Source: Methanolobus sediminis
GTDB taxonomy: Archaea > Halobacteriota > Methanosarcinia > Methanosarcinales > Methanosarcinaceae
Direction: 5' to 3'
Assembly: GCF_031312595.1 (NCBI RefSeq)
Contig: NZ_CP133592.1
Location: 744,001-808,000 of the forward strand
Length of the DNA stretch: 64,000 bases
This document shows, in pieces, positions 32,361 through 40,104 of this stretch (the stretch's first letter is position 1; every line of letters starts with the position of its first letter). Both the position numbers and the translations under genes were made by a program. The notes under the pieces were generated by a model. That model was given only the letters and a program-made list of their open reading frames with translations. It searched no databases and was not told where the DNA came from.

Positions 32361-32806
32361 ATCCCAGTATTTTAACACCTTGTGTGTAAGCGGGCATTCT
32401 TGAAGAGGCCCAATTTATACTTCATGTTAAATCCGACTTTTCGCACTGTAATCTTAATACATGCAGAATTACATATTCCTACGTAATCTACCGTAGCGCC
32501 ATTAAAGGAATATATTATATATAAAACCTTTGCAAGAACATAGAATAAAAATACAACGGCACATAGCTTATTGAGAGCATACTGCCCTTTTATTGAAAAC
32601 ATGCTTCTGATCGTATATCAACACTGCGTATGAACCACAAAACAGAATGAGTGACAAATTCAGAAAAAGAATAATTCAAATCATTTTACCTGATTAAATT
32701 ATCCGGAATGATTTACATGTATAAATTATTACATAAAATGTATCACATAAACAACATATACTACAAATCATCAAATACAATTGAAATAAAACCAGGAGTT
32801 AAAAAG
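32361..32806. other. AT-rich intergenic stretch between the rpl3 and galU promoters
   Basis: About 450 bp without a convincing gene. Short frames on both strands lack ribosome binding sites and family resemblance. A TATA-like sequence, TGTATAAATT near 32718-32727, probably serves galU, giving a leader of roughly 55 nt. I see no tRNA-like or repeat structure here. Confidence 0.5.
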
Positions 32807-33670
32807 GTGGAAGTAAAAAAAGCTGTGATACCTGTTGCAGGAATGGGAACGAGATTCCTGCCAGCCACAAAATCAATGCCAAAAGAAATGTTGCCAATTA
32901 TCGACATTCCCGTAATCCATTACGTCGTCGAAGAAGCTATTGCATCTGGTATTGATGATATTATATTCATCACAGGCAGGAGCAAGCGTTCTATTGAAGA
33001 TTATTTTGATGATTCCCCTGAACTTGAGAACCACCTTCGCCAGAAGAACAATGAAAAACTCCTGAAGATCGTACAGAACATATCTTCTATGGTAGATATA
33101 CACTATATCCGCCAGAAAGAACCTAAGGGACTTGGAGACGCAATCCTCACCGCCAAGAAGCATATAAACGAAGAACCATTTGCAGTTCTTCTTGGTGATG
33201 ATATAATAGTGAACAAAAAACCATGTACAAAACAGCTTATTGATAATTTCATTAAATATGGCAGATCAACTATTGCAGTGGAAGAGGTCCCTATGGAAAA
33301 AACCGGTAGTTACGGAATTATTAAAGGCCACCCATTGGATGATTCCCTCTATATCCTGGAAGACATCGTAGAAAAACCTTCACCAGAAGAAGCACCTTCA
33401 AATATAGGTGCAATCGGAAGGTACGTATTCACTCCTGAAATATTGGACTGCATCAAACAAACAGATATTGGCGTAGGTAATGAGATTCAGCTAACTGATG
33501 GAATTCGTCTTTTGAATGAAAAACAAAAAGTCTATGCTTACAAGTTCACGGGTAAGAGATATGACACAGGTGACAAAGTAGAATACGTAAAGGCGGTAAT
33601 TGACTTTGCTCTTAATAAAGAAGACATGAGAGAACAAATAAAAGAGCACATCTCAAACATTAACCTGTGA
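32807..33670 (+). CDS. galU: UTP--glucose-1-phosphate uridylyltransferase
   Basis: Makes UDP-glucose from UTP and glucose 1-phosphate for cell-surface glycans. Nucleotidyltransferase fold with PVAGMGTRFLPATKSMPKEMLPI near residues 9-31 (the nucleotide-binding loop), VVEEAIASGIDDIIFITGRSKRSIEDYFD near 38, LLGDDIIVN near 131 and NIGAIGRYVFTPEIL near 198. I start at the GTG at 32807, where AGGAG lies 8 nt upstream, giving 287 residues, the normal length; the 33 extra upstream codons are not conserved. A hairpin follows the stop directly. Confidence 0.95.
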   Translation: MEVKKAVIPVAGMGTRFLPATKSMPKEMLPIIDIPVIHYVVEEAIASGIDDIIFITGRSKRSIEDYFDDSPELENHLRQKNNEKLLKIVQNISSMVDIHYIRQKEPKGLGDAILTAKKHINEEPFAVLLGDDIIVNKKPCTKQLIDNFIKYGRSTIAVEEVPMEKTGSYGIIKGHPLDDSLYILEDIVEKPSPEEAPSNIGAIGRYVFTPEILDCIKQTDIGVGNEIQLTDGIRLLNEKQKVYAYKFTGKRYDTGDKVEYVKAVIDFALNKEDMREQIKEHISNINL

Positions 33671-33769: not shown

Positions 33770-34015
33770 TCATTGTGAACTTCGTTTAACAACTTTTCTT
33801 ACAGTCCTTCCTCTGAAATTCACACCACCAACAAGAAGGACACCGGGTTTGCGTTTGATGACATCAGAATAATCACCATCAAATGTTGCAATTATGCTTT
33901 TATTTGCAACAACATCAACACGGCCACCAATACTTACAAGAGCTTTAAGTATTCCTTCAATCTGGGAAGGAGTTGCATTATCTGCAACCCTTACAAGATG
34001 CGTTTCAACCGGCAT
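33770..34015 (-). CDS. Small protein with I9-propeptide-like pattern, PASTA cluster gene 4
   Basis: 81 residues, not a family I can name. The pattern is THLVRVADNATPSQIEGILKALVSIGGRVDV then NKSIIATFDGDYSDVIKRKPGVLLVGGVNF, giving a predicted beta-alpha-beta-beta-alpha-beta order that resembles subtilase propeptide/I9 domains, with the end reading PGVLLVGGV. No subtilase is nearby. Very basic C-terminus (RGRTVRKVVKR). It follows the coiled-coil/PASTA gene by 5 bp and is the last gene of the cluster. The fold guess is mine. Confidence 0.7.
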   Translation of the reverse strand: MPVETHLVRVADNATPSQIEGILKALVSIGGRVDVVANKSIIATFDGDYSDVIKRKPGVLLVGGVNFRGRTVRKVVKRSSQ

Positions 34016-34020
34016 TGCAT

Positions 34021-35091
34021 TTACTTCCGGGAAATTATTTTCCTGGTGGAGCTGATTCTTGTTGCTGTGCCGGATATTGCTTTAGCAGTGGACCTGGAAA
34101 TAGTCGGACTTGTAACGGTCTTTCCAGAAACTGCAGCAAACTCTATATTTGAACTTGCAACAACAAGATCTATGGCAGCTCCAATACCTGCATAACTGCC
34201 AGCTTCAACAGACTGACTTATAACGGTACCTGCCTTCAAGGAATTCACTTGCTCAGTCACATTACCAATGAACAGACCAATCTCCTCCAATAATTTCCTG
34301 GCAACTGCAAGAGTATTACCTGTCAAATCAGGAACCTCAACAGATGTAATCTTTGAAATTACAAGATCTACTGCATCACCGGACTTTGCAACCGAACTAG
34401 CGGAAGGTATCTGTGAAAGTACCGTACCCTGTGCAAGTTCACTGTCCTTTTCAATAAGTTCTCCCTTAACAAAACCTGCTTCTTTGATAGTAGCAAGGGC
34501 AGCATCAAGCTCCAGACCCACCACATTAGGTACATCTTCATAACTGGCAAATTCAGGACCCTTTGATGATGAACTGATAGTGAATTCAACCTCACTCAAG
34601 TTACTTGCAGGAATGATGTCATCAGCCTTAGGCAACTGGAAACGAAGATCGTTGCCACTCATAGCAATATTTGTCTTGAGTTTGATATTCATTGAACTTA
34701 CACTATAATTTACTCTTGAAGAACTGCTTTTAAGAGAGGATTCCATACTCTGAAGAGAATCACTGAATGCTTTAACCAGGTTTTCAGATGAAAGTTCTGG
34801 CCTGGTACGTGATATTTGTTCCAGTTTTTTCTCAATTTCCAGCTTCTCATTGATGATGTCCTTTACACGACTATCCAGTATGTTATATTCCTGCTTTAAA
34901 GCAAGATTTTCTTTCTGAAACTTTTCAAGTGCAGCTGTTTTAGATATAAGATCTTTATTGAGATTCTCAAAATCAGACTCAATAGCTGCAATACTTCTTT
35001 CAGCAAGAAGATAGCTATTTCTTTTTGATGCAGCAGTAGTTGCTTTGTTCAGGCTTTCAATATTCTTCCTAAGATCAGTAATATCAACCAT
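34021..35091 (-). CDS. Cytoplasmic coiled-coil protein with two PASTA domains
   Basis: 356 residues without signal peptide or membrane helix. Residues 1-95 form a predicted coiled coil (LRKNIESLNKATTAASKRNS, KDLISKTAALEKFQKENLAL, KDIINEKLEIEKKLEQISR). Residues about 100-185 are a beta-rich middle. Two PASTA-type repeats follow: VPNVVGLELDAALATIKEAG near 188-250 and VPDLTGNTLAVARKLLEEIG near 253-315, each ending in hydrophobic DLVIS/DLVVAS strands; then a basic serine/threonine/arginine tail. PASTA domains usually sit outside the cell on kinases or penicillin-binding proteins, so this context is unusual. Cotranscribed with the two paralogous genes upstream. Function unknown. Confidence 0.8.
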   Translation of the reverse strand: MVDITDLRKNIESLNKATTAASKRNSYLLAERSIAAIESDFENLNKDLISKTAALEKFQKENLALKQEYNILDSRVKDIINEKLEIEKKLEQISRTRPELSSENLVKAFSDSLQSMESSLKSSSSRVNYSVSSMNIKLKTNIAMSGNDLRFQLPKADDIIPASNLSEVEFTISSSSKGPEFASYEDVPNVVGLELDAALATIKEAGFVKGELIEKDSELAQGTVLSQIPSASSVAKSGDAVDLVISKITSVEVPDLTGNTLAVARKLLEEIGLFIGNVTEQVNSLKAGTVISQSVEAGSYAGIGAAIDLVVASSNIEFAAVSGKTVTSPTISRSTAKAISGTATRISSTRKIISRK

Positions 35092-35106
35092 TCCACCCTC
35101 CTGCCC

Positions 35107-35535
35107 TCATTCTTCCGTTACACGGTAAGATGGTGGTACTGATACGATCTTAGCCTTCAGAACACTTGAACCTTCTACATCATATGAATTGAGCGATTTA
35201 TAAGATGCATTTAATGGTGCTGCATTCAGAATCCGTTTGTATCCACGAACACGGCCTTTGGAATCTTTTTCTTCCTCATATGACATTGAAAGGGTCATTT
35301 TGAGTTCAATATCCACTTCCGGAATATGATACCATGTAGCCTCCAGATTATACTCCTTGAGTACTTCATCACTTGAAAGCTCTATCTGAGTATCAATTGA
35401 ATTGCGGTCAAGTGATCTCTGAGTCTGGGCAATTGACTTACCCATTTCACCAAGGATTGTTGAAAGCGGGCTTATAAGGACCTCTTCGATATTCACGTTA
35501 CTACCGGATGGCAATATACTACCTCCTTCGATCAT
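35107..35535 (-). CDS. Conserved hypothetical protein B of PASTA cluster (paralogue of neighbour)
   Basis: 142 residues, no recognised domain name with confidence; the layout recalls DUF2589-type proteins. Helical N-terminus (PLSTILGEMGKSIAQTQRSL, near residues 23-42), a DRNSIDTQI segment, then beta-rich DIELKMTLSMSYEEEKDSKG and the C-terminal VLKAKIVSVPPSYRV. The order and several positions match the upstream gene (PFGDMIKEMAFAIAEGQTAL; EVKMTISMKREYSTEK; TTLKPVPPPERAV), so the two are diverged duplicates. Ends 15 bp before the PASTA gene. The start is the ATG at 35535 after CGAAGGAGG, which lies within range. Confidence 0.75.
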   Translation of the reverse strand: MIEGGSILPSGSNVNIEEVLISPLSTILGEMGKSIAQTQRSLDRNSIDTQIELSSDEVLKEYNLEATWYHIPEVDIELKMTLSMSYEEEKDSKGRVRGYKRILNAAPLNASYKSLNSYDVEGSSVLKAKIVSVPPSYRVTEE

Positions 35536-35586
35536 CGTAAAAATAAATGACCAATGCAGATTGTAACTGCATTGATACTGCCCTCA

Positions 35587-36195
35587 TTACTCAGTAGCCT
35601 CTTTCACACGGACCGTAGGAACAGCTCTTTCAGGAGGTGGTACTGGCTTGAGAGTGGTCCTCAGAAGACTGGTGCCTGATTCATTGAAAGTATACTTGGA
35701 CTTGTATGTTGCATCATAAGTTGATGTATATGCAACATTGGTGGTATTCTCAGCACTTACCTTAGCCTTACCGAAAAGGAGACCCGCAAGGCCACCAGAC
35801 TGGTAGCTACCTTTTATCTTCGATTCATTGGTGAACTTGAATTCTCTGCCATATTTCTTTTCTGTAGAATACTCCCTTTTCATTGAGATTGTCATCTTTA
35901 CCTCAATGATGGATTCGGTGAATTCATAGAAACGTGGCTCCAGACCATATGTCAACAGTGACATTGGTTGATCGTTTGTGACCACATTGGTTGCAGTAAC
36001 GTTATTATCCGCATCCACTGTTTCCTCTATATAGAGAATTACACTCCCAGCTTCTAATTCTGTCTCTGCAAGAGCCTGTGCAACATTGATAGAGTTCATA
36101 TCAAGTGCAGTCTGCCCTTCTGCAATGGCAAAGGCCATCTCTTTTATCATATCCCCAAATGGGACATCTAACAATTTTTGTCCAACTGATGCCAT
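35587..36195 (-). CDS. Conserved hypothetical protein A of PASTA cluster
   Basis: 202 residues starting MASVGQKLLDVPFGDMIKEM, with an AIAEGQTALDMNSINVAQAL helix, then SVILYIEETVDADNNVT, EVKMTISMKREYSTEKKYGREF and a C-terminus TSLLRTTLKPVPPPERAVPTV. Resembles the DUF2589 layout, unproven. The ATG at 36195 has an ideal TGGAGGG site, so the 14 extra in-frame codons upstream are excluded. A central segment, GSYQSGGLAGLLFGKAKVSAENT, is absent from the downstream paralogue. First gene of the cluster, with a TATA-like promoter at about 36237-36246. Function unknown. Confidence 0.8.
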   Translation of the reverse strand: MASVGQKLLDVPFGDMIKEMAFAIAEGQTALDMNSINVAQALAETELEAGSVILYIEETVDADNNVTATNVVTNDQPMSLLTYGLEPRFYEFTESIIEVKMTISMKREYSTEKKYGREFKFTNESKIKGSYQSGGLAGLLFGKAKVSAENTTNVAYTSTYDATYKSKYTFNESGTSLLRTTLKPVPPPERAVPTVRVKEATE

Positions 36196-36236
36196 ATTAA
36201 CCCTCCAAATTTTTAGGTATAATATAATATGGCACA

Positions 36237-36246
36237 TTATAATTTA
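36237..36246 (-). promoter_or_regulatory. TATA box of the PASTA cluster
   Basis: Minus-strand CTTTTAAATTATAATG, TATA element at 36246-36237. Start predicted near 36216, so the leader is about 20 nt and includes the GGAGGG site. Confidence 0.5.
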
Positions 36247-36409
36247 AAAGACTTTTGTAAAAGTAACTGTGAAAATATAAAATTACTGTGAATTGAACTT
36301 GTACACAACCAAAGTAGCATATGACAAAACAAAGAAAAAGTAAATTTTTGCACAAGATGCACAATTATAACAACATTATTGATGGAAAATAGAGGGAATG
36401 GAGAACAAA

Positions 36410-37006
36410 TCATCCCTGTATTACAGACCTACCCATCTCAAAAGCCTTTACGTTGATATCAATAGTCTTCTGAGGAACAAGTTCCTTTACGCATTCCACC
36501 AGAGTTTCAACGGATACTGGCAGGTAGTTTGAAACCGCACCCACCATTACAACGTTCATGGACTGAGGATGACCTGCCTCTCTGGCAAGCTCAGTTGCAT
36601 TGAAGGCTTTTACTTCGTGGGTTTCTTCCAGCTTCGCAATAATTGCATCAACATCAGGATAGCTACACTGCCCTGAGGTGACAGTTACCGGAAGTATAGG
36701 ATCTGTGTTTACTATTATAGTACCATCATCAGAAAGGAATTCCAGATACCTTAACGCTTCGCTTGGTTCAAGTGAAAGCAAAACGTCAGCACCTTTCATA
36801 GGGATCATGGAACCAAGTTCACAGCCAAGCCTGACATGATTGACAACTGACCCACCACGCTGTGCCATTCCGTGTGTTTCTGCTGCACGTACTGACATAT
36901 TTTCCTTCACAGCAGCCTTGCCAATTATATCGGATGCAAGGATGGTACCTTGTCCACCCACACCAGCAATTACAAGATCGAATTTTGATATTCCTTCGGC
37001 ACTCAT
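36410..37006 (-). CDS. iorB: Indolepyruvate ferredoxin oxidoreductase, beta subunit
   Basis: Gamma-type subunit of the 2-oxoacid oxidoreductase that decarboxylates aryl pyruvates (from aromatic amino acid transamination) to aryl acetyl-CoA with ferredoxin. 198 residues: FDLVIAGVGGQGTILASDIIGKAAVKENMSVRAAETHGMAQRGGSVVNHVR is the signature. Overlaps iorA end by 4 bases, so both subunits are coupled. In methanogens it may also run in the biosynthetic direction. Confidence 0.94.
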   Translation of the reverse strand: MSAEGISKFDLVIAGVGGQGTILASDIIGKAAVKENMSVRAAETHGMAQRGGSVVNHVRLGCELGSMIPMKGADVLLSLEPSEALRYLEFLSDDGTIIVNTDPILPVTVTSGQCSYPDVDAIIAKLEETHEVKAFNATELAREAGHPQSMNVVMVGAVSNYLPVSVETLVECVKELVPQKTIDINVKAFEMGRSVIQG

Positions 37007-38832
37007 TTCTTCACCTCCGTGATAGCATCAAACTTACATAAAGCTGCACATACTCCACATCCCGTACACATTGCATTGATAGATGCTTTCTTGGTCGTTG
37101 TGTTAAATTCAATCGCCGGACAGCCGAGGTTCACACACAACCTGCATCCGACACACTTCTCAGCATCGATGACAAATGGTTTCCTGCGAATACCGGAGCG
37201 TTTTGCATCAATGACACAATACTGCCTTGTGATGACAACTGATGTACCTTTGTGTTCTTTTGCCCTTTTGAAGACCTCTTCTGTCTTTTCAAGGTCATAT
37301 GGATCAACTGTTTCAACAAAACCAGCACCCATACTCTTACATAATTCCTCAAGAGAAACTTCAATGGTTGACTCGCCTGTTGCAAGCTTACCCATTCCAG
37401 GATTTGGCTGATGACCGGTCATTGCAGTTATACGGTTGTCTACTATAGTTACTGTAATATCTGCTTTATTGTAGATAGCATTGAGAAGACCATTCATTCC
37501 TGTGTGGAAGAATGTGGAATCTCCGATTGAGCAGCAGATCGGTTTCTTCTCTCCTGCCTGATACATTCCGCTTGCTACGGTTATGCTCCCACCCATACAG
37601 AGTGTTGTATCAACTGTACCACTCTGGATTCCCAGTGTGTAGCAGCCGATGTCACTTGGAAAGATTGCATCTTTGCCGTAGACTTTTTTCATTACATGGA
37701 AACTTGCCCTGTGAGAACATCCCGGACACATGACAGGAGGTCGCATTGGCAGATCAATTCTGCACCTGTCGTAATCGAAGTCTTCTGCGACTTCTGCAGG
37801 GACATCCGGCCTTTCAAGCTCAAGGACTTCTGCAAGAACATCTGCACAGATATCAGTATTCAGTTCATAGATTCTTGGAACTGGCCCTGGTATCTTGCCA
37901 ACTATATCTACAGTTGAGCCAGTCTGCTGTGCAATTATCCTTACCTGCTCCTCAACTATTGGTTCCATTTCCTCGAAAATGATTATCTTCTCTGTATTCT
38001 CCAGAAGAGTACGAATCTTGCTCTCAGGAACAGGATAGGTTCCAATCTTCAGGAATGATGCATTGGTTCCCTGTTTGACGATGGCTTCCTTTGCGTAGAC
38101 TGAAGCAATGCCTGATGCTATGACTCCTACCTTTGCACCGTCTGTAAGTTCAAGAGAATTCCATGGAGAGTTCTCCAGTTCTTCCTGCATTATTTTCTGA
38201 GATTCAAGAAGTCGAGGATGCTGTATCCTTGCATTTTTGGGGACCATGACCCATCTTTCGAGTTCCTTTACAAACTCTGCTGAAGGTCTGGTTTCTTCCA
38301 CAGGCCCTAGCTCGATATCAGATTTTCCGTGAGAGATACGGGTTGTAGGCCTGAAAATTACAGGCATCTGAACCTTGTTTGAGAATTCGAATGCAAAGGG
38401 AATCATGTCCTTGGCTTCCTGTGGTGTGGAAGGATCAAGACACGGTATGAGTGAGAATTGTGAGTACCTGCGGGTGTCCTGCTCGTTCTGTGATGAATGG
38501 CATGAAGGGTCGTCTGCAACGATTATTATCATGCTGCCTTTGACACCTGTATAAGCAAGAGTGAGTAAAGGGTCTGCTGCTACGTTCAGCCCGACGTGTT
38601 TCATGGTTACTACTGAACGCACGCCAGTCATTGCAGCGCCGGCTGCTACTTCAAAGGCAACTTTCTCATTGACTGACCACTCTACGTAAAAGTCTCTTTC
38701 CTTCATTCCTGCCAGTGTACCGATGATCTCAGAGGATGGCGTTCCGGGATAACCGGATATGACCTGTCCTCCTCCTTCCACGATACCGCGTGCAATTGCA
38801 ACGTTTCCCAGCATGTACTCGCGTGTGCTCAT
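37003..38832 (-). CDS. iorA: Indolepyruvate ferredoxin oxidoreductase, alpha subunit
   Basis: Catalytic subunit, 609 residues. N-terminal pyrimidine-domain VISGYPGTPSSEIIGTLAG near residue 25; TPP-binding domain GDSTFFHTGMNGLLNAIYNKADITVTIVDN near residue 430; C-terminal ferredoxin domain with CVGCRLCVNLGCP and CTGCGVCAALCK near residues 565-600, two [4Fe-4S] clusters. The ATG at 38832 is preceded by GGAGATTAAC; the frame is open seven codons further. It shares a 4-bp overlap with iorB. Divergent from the RMND1-like gene. Confidence 0.96.
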   Translation of the reverse strand: MSTREYMLGNVAIARGIVEGGGQVISGYPGTPSSEIIGTLAGMKERDFYVEWSVNEKVAFEVAAGAAMTGVRSVVTMKHVGLNVAADPLLTLAYTGVKGSMIIIVADDPSCHSSQNEQDTRRYSQFSLIPCLDPSTPQEAKDMIPFAFEFSNKVQMPVIFRPTTRISHGKSDIELGPVEETRPSAEFVKELERWVMVPKNARIQHPRLLESQKIMQEELENSPWNSLELTDGAKVGVIASGIASVYAKEAIVKQGTNASFLKIGTYPVPESKIRTLLENTEKIIIFEEMEPIVEEQVRIIAQQTGSTVDIVGKIPGPVPRIYELNTDICADVLAEVLELERPDVPAEVAEDFDYDRCRIDLPMRPPVMCPGCSHRASFHVMKKVYGKDAIFPSDIGCYTLGIQSGTVDTTLCMGGSITVASGMYQAGEKKPICCSIGDSTFFHTGMNGLLNAIYNKADITVTIVDNRITAMTGHQPNPGMGKLATGESTIEVSLEELCKSMGAGFVETVDPYDLEKTEEVFKRAKEHKGTSVVITRQYCVIDAKRSGIRRKPFVIDAEKCVGCRLCVNLGCPAIEFNTTTKKASINAMCTGCGVCAALCKFDAITEVKK

Positions 38833-38983
38833 GTTAATCTCCTGCCAAGTCATACAAAATGATTATTGATAAAGATATCCTAACGAATGTTGCATGTTAA
38901 CATATGTCACTGCATGATGATTTAACAATAACTGAACAGAGAACAAAACAGAAATAAAGAAGCAATTTGCAGCGTCCTGTAAA

Positions 38984-39042: not shown

Positions 39043-40104
39043 ATGATAACGATTCGTTTTTACAGGATCTATGACATCGGACTGGATATCGACCTTGACT
39101 GGCTTGAAAAGGAACTCGCCAGCAGCTTCACCACAGCAAGAGCAAGTTTTGTGCGTGTCAGGCCCACATCTATTATTATGGAAATTCCCCCACTGCTAAT
39201 CAGACTTGGTCAGTGCAGTGTGGAGAAGGATGGAAGAATATTCGATTTTTCGGTGTTTGCACGTATTTTCAAGATTGGTGCCATAAGCCTGTGTTTTGCA
39301 TATGAGAAGGAAGATGCGGACTTTGAATTCCTTGAGAACACGGCACTGTTATTCTCTGAGCAGGAGGGACTTGAGGATCTGTTCCTTTCACATCTCAATA
39401 CCCTTGCAGACATACTCAAACCTCACATCCGGGGATTTGAGATGACTCCTGGTTTCTTTGAGGAATATACTATTTATCATATGGACTGGATTGATGATTC
39501 CATTGATCCAATGCCACTGCTTGCAGGCGAAAGAAGTGAGTTTTCACCCCAGATGATCGATGAGATCCTCAAAGCTACACATAGCTATACTAAAAATGAC
39601 CGTGCCATATTTTCATGGGACTCTGCCCTGATTTGCGATCCCGATACTCCTACAGACCTTTTTGACCTTATTGAATTTGCAAATGTACAGGTTTTTGAGC
39701 TGCGTTACTATGATAGGGAACTGAGCAGGAGCATGGAAAAGATGTATGAGGATATTGCCCTTGCAGACAAACTCCCGTTCTTCAAGAGAAGAAAATTGTA
39801 CAGGGCAATTATGACAAAGCTCATGCAGGACACCGCAGCCCTTTCTGAAGTCACCGAGAAGGTCAACAACCTTATCAAAGTTACTGAGGATGTTTACTAT
39901 GCAAGGGTATATGCAACCGTCCTGAAAACACTAAGAAGCGAGCAGTGGACCGAGAGTGTGAATCGTAAAATAGACATGATACAGGACAATTATTCAATGC
40001 TCTCTGACGAGGTAAGGATTGAGCACTCCAATTACCTTGAATGGATAATTATTGTACTCATTGCTATTGAGATTGTGATGGCGGTGGCGGAGAGGATTGT
40101 GTAA
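39043..40104 (+). CDS. RMND1/Sif2-like (DUF155-type) tail-anchored protein
   Basis: 353 residues, probable member of the DUF155 family found in archaea, bacteria and mitochondria, whose cellular role is poorly known. The diagnostic C-terminal half is VYYARVYATVLKTLRSEQWTESVNRKIDMIQDNYSMLSDEVRIEHSNYLEW near residues 290-340, followed by a single membrane helix IIIVLIAIEIVMAVAERIV at the very end. The N-terminus carries ordinary soluble beta-alpha pattern. ATG at 39043 after CAGGAGATAATAATCC. Not part of an obvious operon; proA is 195 bp downstream. Confidence 0.72.
   Translation: MITIRFYRIYDIGLDIDLDWLEKELASSFTTARASFVRVRPTSIIMEIPPLLIRLGQCSVEKDGRIFDFSVFARIFKIGAISLCFAYEKEDADFEFLENTALLFSEQEGLEDLFLSHLNTLADILKPHIRGFEMTPGFFEEYTIYHMDWIDDSIDPMPLLAGERSEFSPQMIDEILKATHSYTKNDRAIFSWDSALICDPDTPTDLFDLIEFANVQVFELRYYDRELSRSMEKMYEDIALADKLPFFKRRKLYRAIMTKLMQDTAALSEVTEKVNNLIKVTEDVYYARVYATVLKTLRSEQWTESVNRKIDMIQDNYSMLSDEVRIEHSNYLEWIIIVLIAIEIVMAVAERIV

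Follow-up and report, generated by a model that had tools for sequence, protein, structure and literature searches.

The locus and its four genes

The stretch of DNA analyzed here, termed the window, comprises 64,000 nucleotides from the 2.8 Mb genome of Methanolobus sediminis. All four ORFs of a cluster reported in a preliminary description were found on its minus strand. Gene A (35587..36195) begins at an ATG at 36195 and encodes 202 aa. It is followed on the same strand by gene B (35107..35514), gene C (34021..35091, 356 aa), and gene D (33770..34015, 81 aa). The ORF of B can be opened at an ATG at 35535. However, most homologues from the same genus begin at an MPS equivalent to the TTG at 35514, and for this reason the TTG is most likely the start. 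The length of B is therefore 135 aa, and the gap between A and B is 72 bp instead of the 51 bp first given, while the cluster of four ORFs itself stands.

Approximately 50 bp upstream of A lies a putative promoter (36237..36260, minus strand), composed of the BRE-like element ACAAAAGTC and the TATA box TTTTAAATTATA, the window copy of which is located at about 36249-36238. In an alignment of 11 genomes of the same genus, the block GCAAAGTC-TTTAAATTATAT is conserved at this distance from A and is followed by GGAGG and ATG, as would be expected of an archaeal BRE/TATA promoter. The idea that the set carries its own TATA box is borne out by this conserved block. The ribosome-binding site of A, GGAGGG (36201..36206, minus strand), is kept in the same alignment, and that of B, GGAGG (35522..35526, minus strand), stands 7 nt before the TTG. 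Strong ribosome sites had been proposed for the entire set; GGAGG-type sites precede A, B, and C, but none is present before D.

Housekeeping genes form both edges of the insertion point and are regarded as outside the system. On one side are iorB- and iorA-like genes (36410..38853, minus strand), and on the other a galU-like nucleotidyltransferase gene (32708..33670, plus strand), the side on which the ribosomal-protein L3 operon is also located. Elsewhere in the window, positions 39043-40104 encode a protein of 353 aa whose C terminus carries a membrane segment and which presumably resembles a member of the RMD1/DUF155 family. Among named records, the closest relatives of the window are Methanolobus; the A protein of Methanolobus vulcani B1d is 99% identical to the window's.

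Conservation as one unit

Of 60 genomes of the order that were searched, about 30, drawn from five families, retain the arrangement A-B-C-D. A and C as queries match nearly the same genomes, including 16 of 27 within the genus in each case. Low dN/dS values (Nei-Gojobori, 13-14 genomes) were obtained for A (0.044), B (0.079), C (0.162), and D (0.140). Synteny on this scale, together with these values, excludes chance, and by the pattern of substitution A-D are real genes under purifying selection.

The site of the block was also inspected in seven genomes of the same genus that do not carry it. In five of these, no more than about 110 bp separates iorB from galU; one retains just a remnant of galU (29 residues at the same site, L271:2667-2753); and in one, galU is gone as well. 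No traces of A-D were found at the site in any of the seven. The adjacency of iorB and galU without such traces indicates that the block was lost or gained whole at a fixed address. That the four genes form one functional unit is well supported. Co-occurrence, block-wise presence and absence, and the PASTA fold described below all agree with the original proposal of a co-functioning set around a cytoplasmic coiled-coil/PASTA protein.

Proteins A and B

The two small proteins had been called related, and comparison of A with B (phmmer E about 1e-8; hhalign probability 99.1-99.5) confirms them as paralogues, B being the shorter. An AF2 model of A built on a 68-sequence alignment predicts a helix at residues 13-44 and, at 95-132/145-182, a 38-residue beta-hairpin. 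Mean pLDDT of this model is 72, and the outer half of the hairpin falls below 50. The first strand is amphipathic, with charged residues making up 58% of one face vs 16% of the other. The hairpin tip, SGGLAGLLFGKA, is hydrophobic, and the hydrophobic face is interrupted by R, K, and N. Positions that hardly vary in A and B are for the most part G, P, and aromatic residues together with an E-x-K strand motif, and they look structural rather than catalytic. Neither Cys nor His occurs in the A and C proteins of the window. No catalytic residues or membrane spans are apparent in A-D, and the highest 19-residue Kyte-Doolittle mean is 1.54, in line with the earlier claim that the four proteins have no membrane segment.

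The window's A gives no match in Pfam. Foldseek returned no significant fold match for A in the PDB (best E 0.058) or among viral proteins (best E 0.007, TM 0.19); its matches are weak and mostly confined to the hairpin and were not taken as homology. No solved relatives of A or D were found, and for B such relatives were reached only via the PASTA portion of fused homologues. One B protein contains a fused ribosomal L7/L12 C-terminal domain (3.1e-11), a rare arrangement.

Proteins C and D

Protein C consists of a coiled coil (20-94), a helix (102-122), a beta domain (133-173), two PASTA domains (184-314), and a basic tail (320-356) with 8 basic and 0 acidic residues. The combination of coiled coil and two PASTA domains, proposed earlier as PASTA-like repeats, was verified in several ways. 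PF03793 is matched at E 2.6e-23 (82.2 bits vs a cut-off of 23.2), the AF2 model has a mean pLDDT of 84 with about 96 in the PASTA domains, and in Foldseek these folds match the solved structures 3PY9, 3M9G, and 5E12. C therefore has a true PASTA fold. A similar xVxLK strand motif is shared by the beta domain of C and A/B. Direct sequence homology of this domain to A/B was considered and is not supported, the 97% match between B and C being mainly PASTA-borne.

Several unusual C genes were observed. A giant second C-like gene, encoding about 1,320-1,530 aa with 12-14 PASTA domains, is located just upstream of A-B-C-D at L152:2932-7512, L154:1641-6149, and L077:10550-14524. Additionally, a potato inhibitor I domain (best E 3.4e-6) is fused in two C proteins, which is again rare.

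Protein D is basic (+6), belongs to no recognised family, and was detected only in archaeal type I loci, as defined below. Its description as I9-like was not supported: hmmscan gave no match to inhibitor I9 (PF05922) in Pfam, and hhalign gave a probability of 0.5% against I9 domains of related genomes, a small and noisy set.

Distribution and layouts

The A profile was scanned against one genome per species, covering 84,980 species, and 75 loci were obtained. Archaeal loci come from Methanosarcinales, Methanocalculus, Methanophagales, Methanomassiliicoccaceae, and Nitrosocaldus. Bacterial loci come from Aquificota, Elioraea, Bacillota, Fibrobacterota, Bacteroidota, Geobacteraceae, Deltaproteobacteria, Spirochaetaceae, and Hydrogenedentota, among others. 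Six-frame profile searches detected A-, B-, and C-type frames together in 73 of the 75 loci, and in the other two the contig ends first. The genes co-occur in nearly every case, contrary to the condition under which the preliminary description would have been refuted, namely homologues found singly and never together. B and C share a strand in 73/73 loci. Since the A and B profiles cross-match, the assignment of B is less certain at single loci such as L186 and L207.

Two layouts can be distinguished. Type I, A-B-C-(D), is found in Methanosarcinales, Aquificota, and Elioraea; D is present in most archaeal type I loci, and in Methanocalculus it lies upstream of A. Type II has the order B-C-A-A', behind which a disordered protein and two TPR proteins usually come; it is carried by Bacillota, Fibrobacterota, Bacteroidota, Geobacteraceae, and gut methanogens. 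Type I loci have their PASTA domains (1-4) on C, together with DUF4332 in some families, whereas in type II both are located on B. This switching of PASTA and DUF4332 between C and B suggests a single complex in which the two proteins work together. PASTA number varies from 0 to 4 and reaches 14 in the extra giant copies. The C of Aquificota has one PASTA domain and neither basic tail nor HHH, and these attachments are therefore optional.

In the tree of A, type I stands apart from type II, the type II A and A' are split with 100/100 support, and gut methanogens fall among Bacillota. This topology suggests exchange between archaea and bacteria, with more than one change of label along the tree, which is not in itself proof of transfer. 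Two further gene arrangements were recorded. In Methanimicrococcus blatticola (L195:10084-12158), a second B gene is fused to a long HHH region and followed by a third B of 115 aa. In Nitrosocaldus, a 111-aa protein lies between A and C (L217:8510-8845; also L215 and L216) and has a weak Trypco2 match at E 0.15.

A possible cytoplasmic assembly

For the function of this unit, the explanation given the greatest weight, at about an even chance, is that the products of A, B, and C join in the cytoplasm into a hetero-oligomeric assembly that is non-enzymatic and in which C is a PASTA/coiled-coil strut. A and B would be related subunits, each with an N-terminal helix followed by a beta-hairpin that is long and amphipathic in A, and these hairpins would pack against their neighbours. 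The coiled coil of C, about 75 residues, could drive oligomerisation, and C also carries a smaller beta domain whose strand motif resembles that of A/B. The variable PASTA rod may act as a strut or docking arm, and DUF4332/HHH, the basic tails, and the TPR proteins of type II may link the assembly to partners. We infer direct binding among A, B, and C, their assembly, and a scaffold role from these features.

Structural subunits of a filament, shell, or scaffold had been suggested previously. Such a role is plausible given paralogous non-enzymatic proteins, an amphipathic hairpin, a coiled coil, and variable PASTA arrays, but no fold match points to any of the three forms. Overall, the interpretation in the preliminary description is partly supported.

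The HHH modules and basic tails could also be interpreted as DNA-binding elements of an architectural complex on DNA or the nucleoid, with coiled-coil C and the beta domains of A/B as bridges. HHH_5/DUF4332 matches on B or C down to E 1e-21, the basic charge of D, and the basic tails (up to +15) that C carries in most type I loci lacking HHH are all in agreement with this. However, among the tails that bear HHH several are acidic (-4 to -9), Aquificota possess neither HHH nor basic tail, and HHH folds are also able to make protein-protein contacts; this explanation is considered unlikely. A conflict or stress system of a defence-like kind, in which A and B would sense or act as effectors and PASTA, DUF4332, and TPR would be adaptors, is rated slightly lower still. 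Patchiness within the genus (16/27), modular domain exchange, apparent exchange between archaea and bacteria, and repeated weak Trypco2 matches (E 0.05-0.15) would fit such a system. Against it, PADLOC families were matched by nothing but the PASTA and coiled-coil regions, no enzyme family is found repeatedly in the neighbourhood across lineages, in many Methanosarcinaceae the block keeps a fixed address next to the ribosomal-protein operon, and A evolves slowly, unlike typical defence genes.

The long alternating amphipathic hairpin of A with its hydrophobic tip raises the idea of a membrane-acting device, in which A/B hairpins would insert as an oligomeric beta-barrel, and most of the weak Foldseek matches are to beta-hairpins from pore-forming and phage-tail proteins. 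None of these reaches significance (E > 0.05, TM < 0.25), the hydrophobic face is broken as noted, and there is no membrane segment or signal peptide; this reading appears improbable. Patchy presence is also what four unrelated neighbour genes or a decaying mobile element would produce, yet synteny over many phyla, purifying selection, and presence or absence as a block make this scarcely credible. The related proposal of a phage or plasmid cassette was discarded, as no relatives were found in IMG/VR or the phage records of INPHARED and a plasmid search gave one weak match.

Beyond the cytoplasmic assembly favoured for the window, the A-B-C loci and the DUF2589 operons discussed below may tentatively, at somewhat less than an even chance, represent an ancient class of assembly in archaea and bacteria that was previously unrecognized, built of DUF2589-superfamily subunits and intracellular PASTA spacers in at least three layouts (type I, type II, and the DUF2589 operons). 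No named system of the same make-up was found in the open-access literature searched. The operon family is widespread and, as far as the open-access literature shows, undescribed, no description of the operon having been found there. A syntenic module of three to seven genes that spans about a dozen phyla in both prokaryotic domains, and whose core proteins have no curated name and no solved relative, is rare. Moreover, the module puts PASTA domains inside the cells of archaea without peptidoglycan and provides a concrete setting for DUF2589 and DUF4332. The carriers include several named strains, such as Methanolobus vulcani, Methanocalculus chunghsingensis, Elioraea thermophila, Pelotalea chapellei, and Youngiibacter fragilis, which makes the question testable.

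Comparison with known systems

PASTA domains are known as extracellular sensors of the cell wall, and the archaeal carriers of the module have no peptidoglycan. True PASTA domains are common to C, the PASTA kinases (PknB/StkP/PrkC), and PBPs of the PBP2x type. In contrast to these, C has no kinase, transpeptidase, or membrane segment, is predicted to be cytoplasmic, and combines its PASTA domains with a coiled coil and a beta domain in a fusion. With neither catalytic domain nor membrane anchor, C does not belong among PASTA kinases or PBPs. DUF4332/HHH_5 (PF14229, PF14520) is an attached module, on C in some type I loci or on B in type II, and is missing from the window's own copy.

Trypco2 (PF19631) is a domain named from conflict systems (PMC7159879). 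It is matched weakly, below significance, by single A and B members and the Nitrosocaldus partner. Trypco2 conflict systems contain trypsin, whereas no trypsin-like gene was noted in the neighbourhoods read here. The link is recurrent and is kept only as a lead.

DUF2589 (PF11655) is the Pfam family most approached by A proteins (4/68, best E 0.0015); neither A nor B of the window gives a hit to it. The profile of DUF2589 aligns with A over its full length (hhalign 88%, E 2.9e-6), and DUF2589 operons contain tandem paralogues and a third gene matching the beta domain of C (87%, E 4.4e-6); mismatched pairs of the same profiles gave less than 60%. The DUF2589 operons that were read showed neither PASTA nor DUF4332. 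Tandem operons with a small C-beta-like third gene were observed at L241-L248 and L129. In Archaeoglobus fulgidus, the DUF2589-related genes AF0414-AF0417 are up-regulated on lactate (PMC3949148), the sole published observation on such genes found in the open-access literature. Profile comparison thus points to distant homology of A to DUF2589 with the same operon logic, and the DUF2589 operons look like a deeper sister system of the A-B-C unit.
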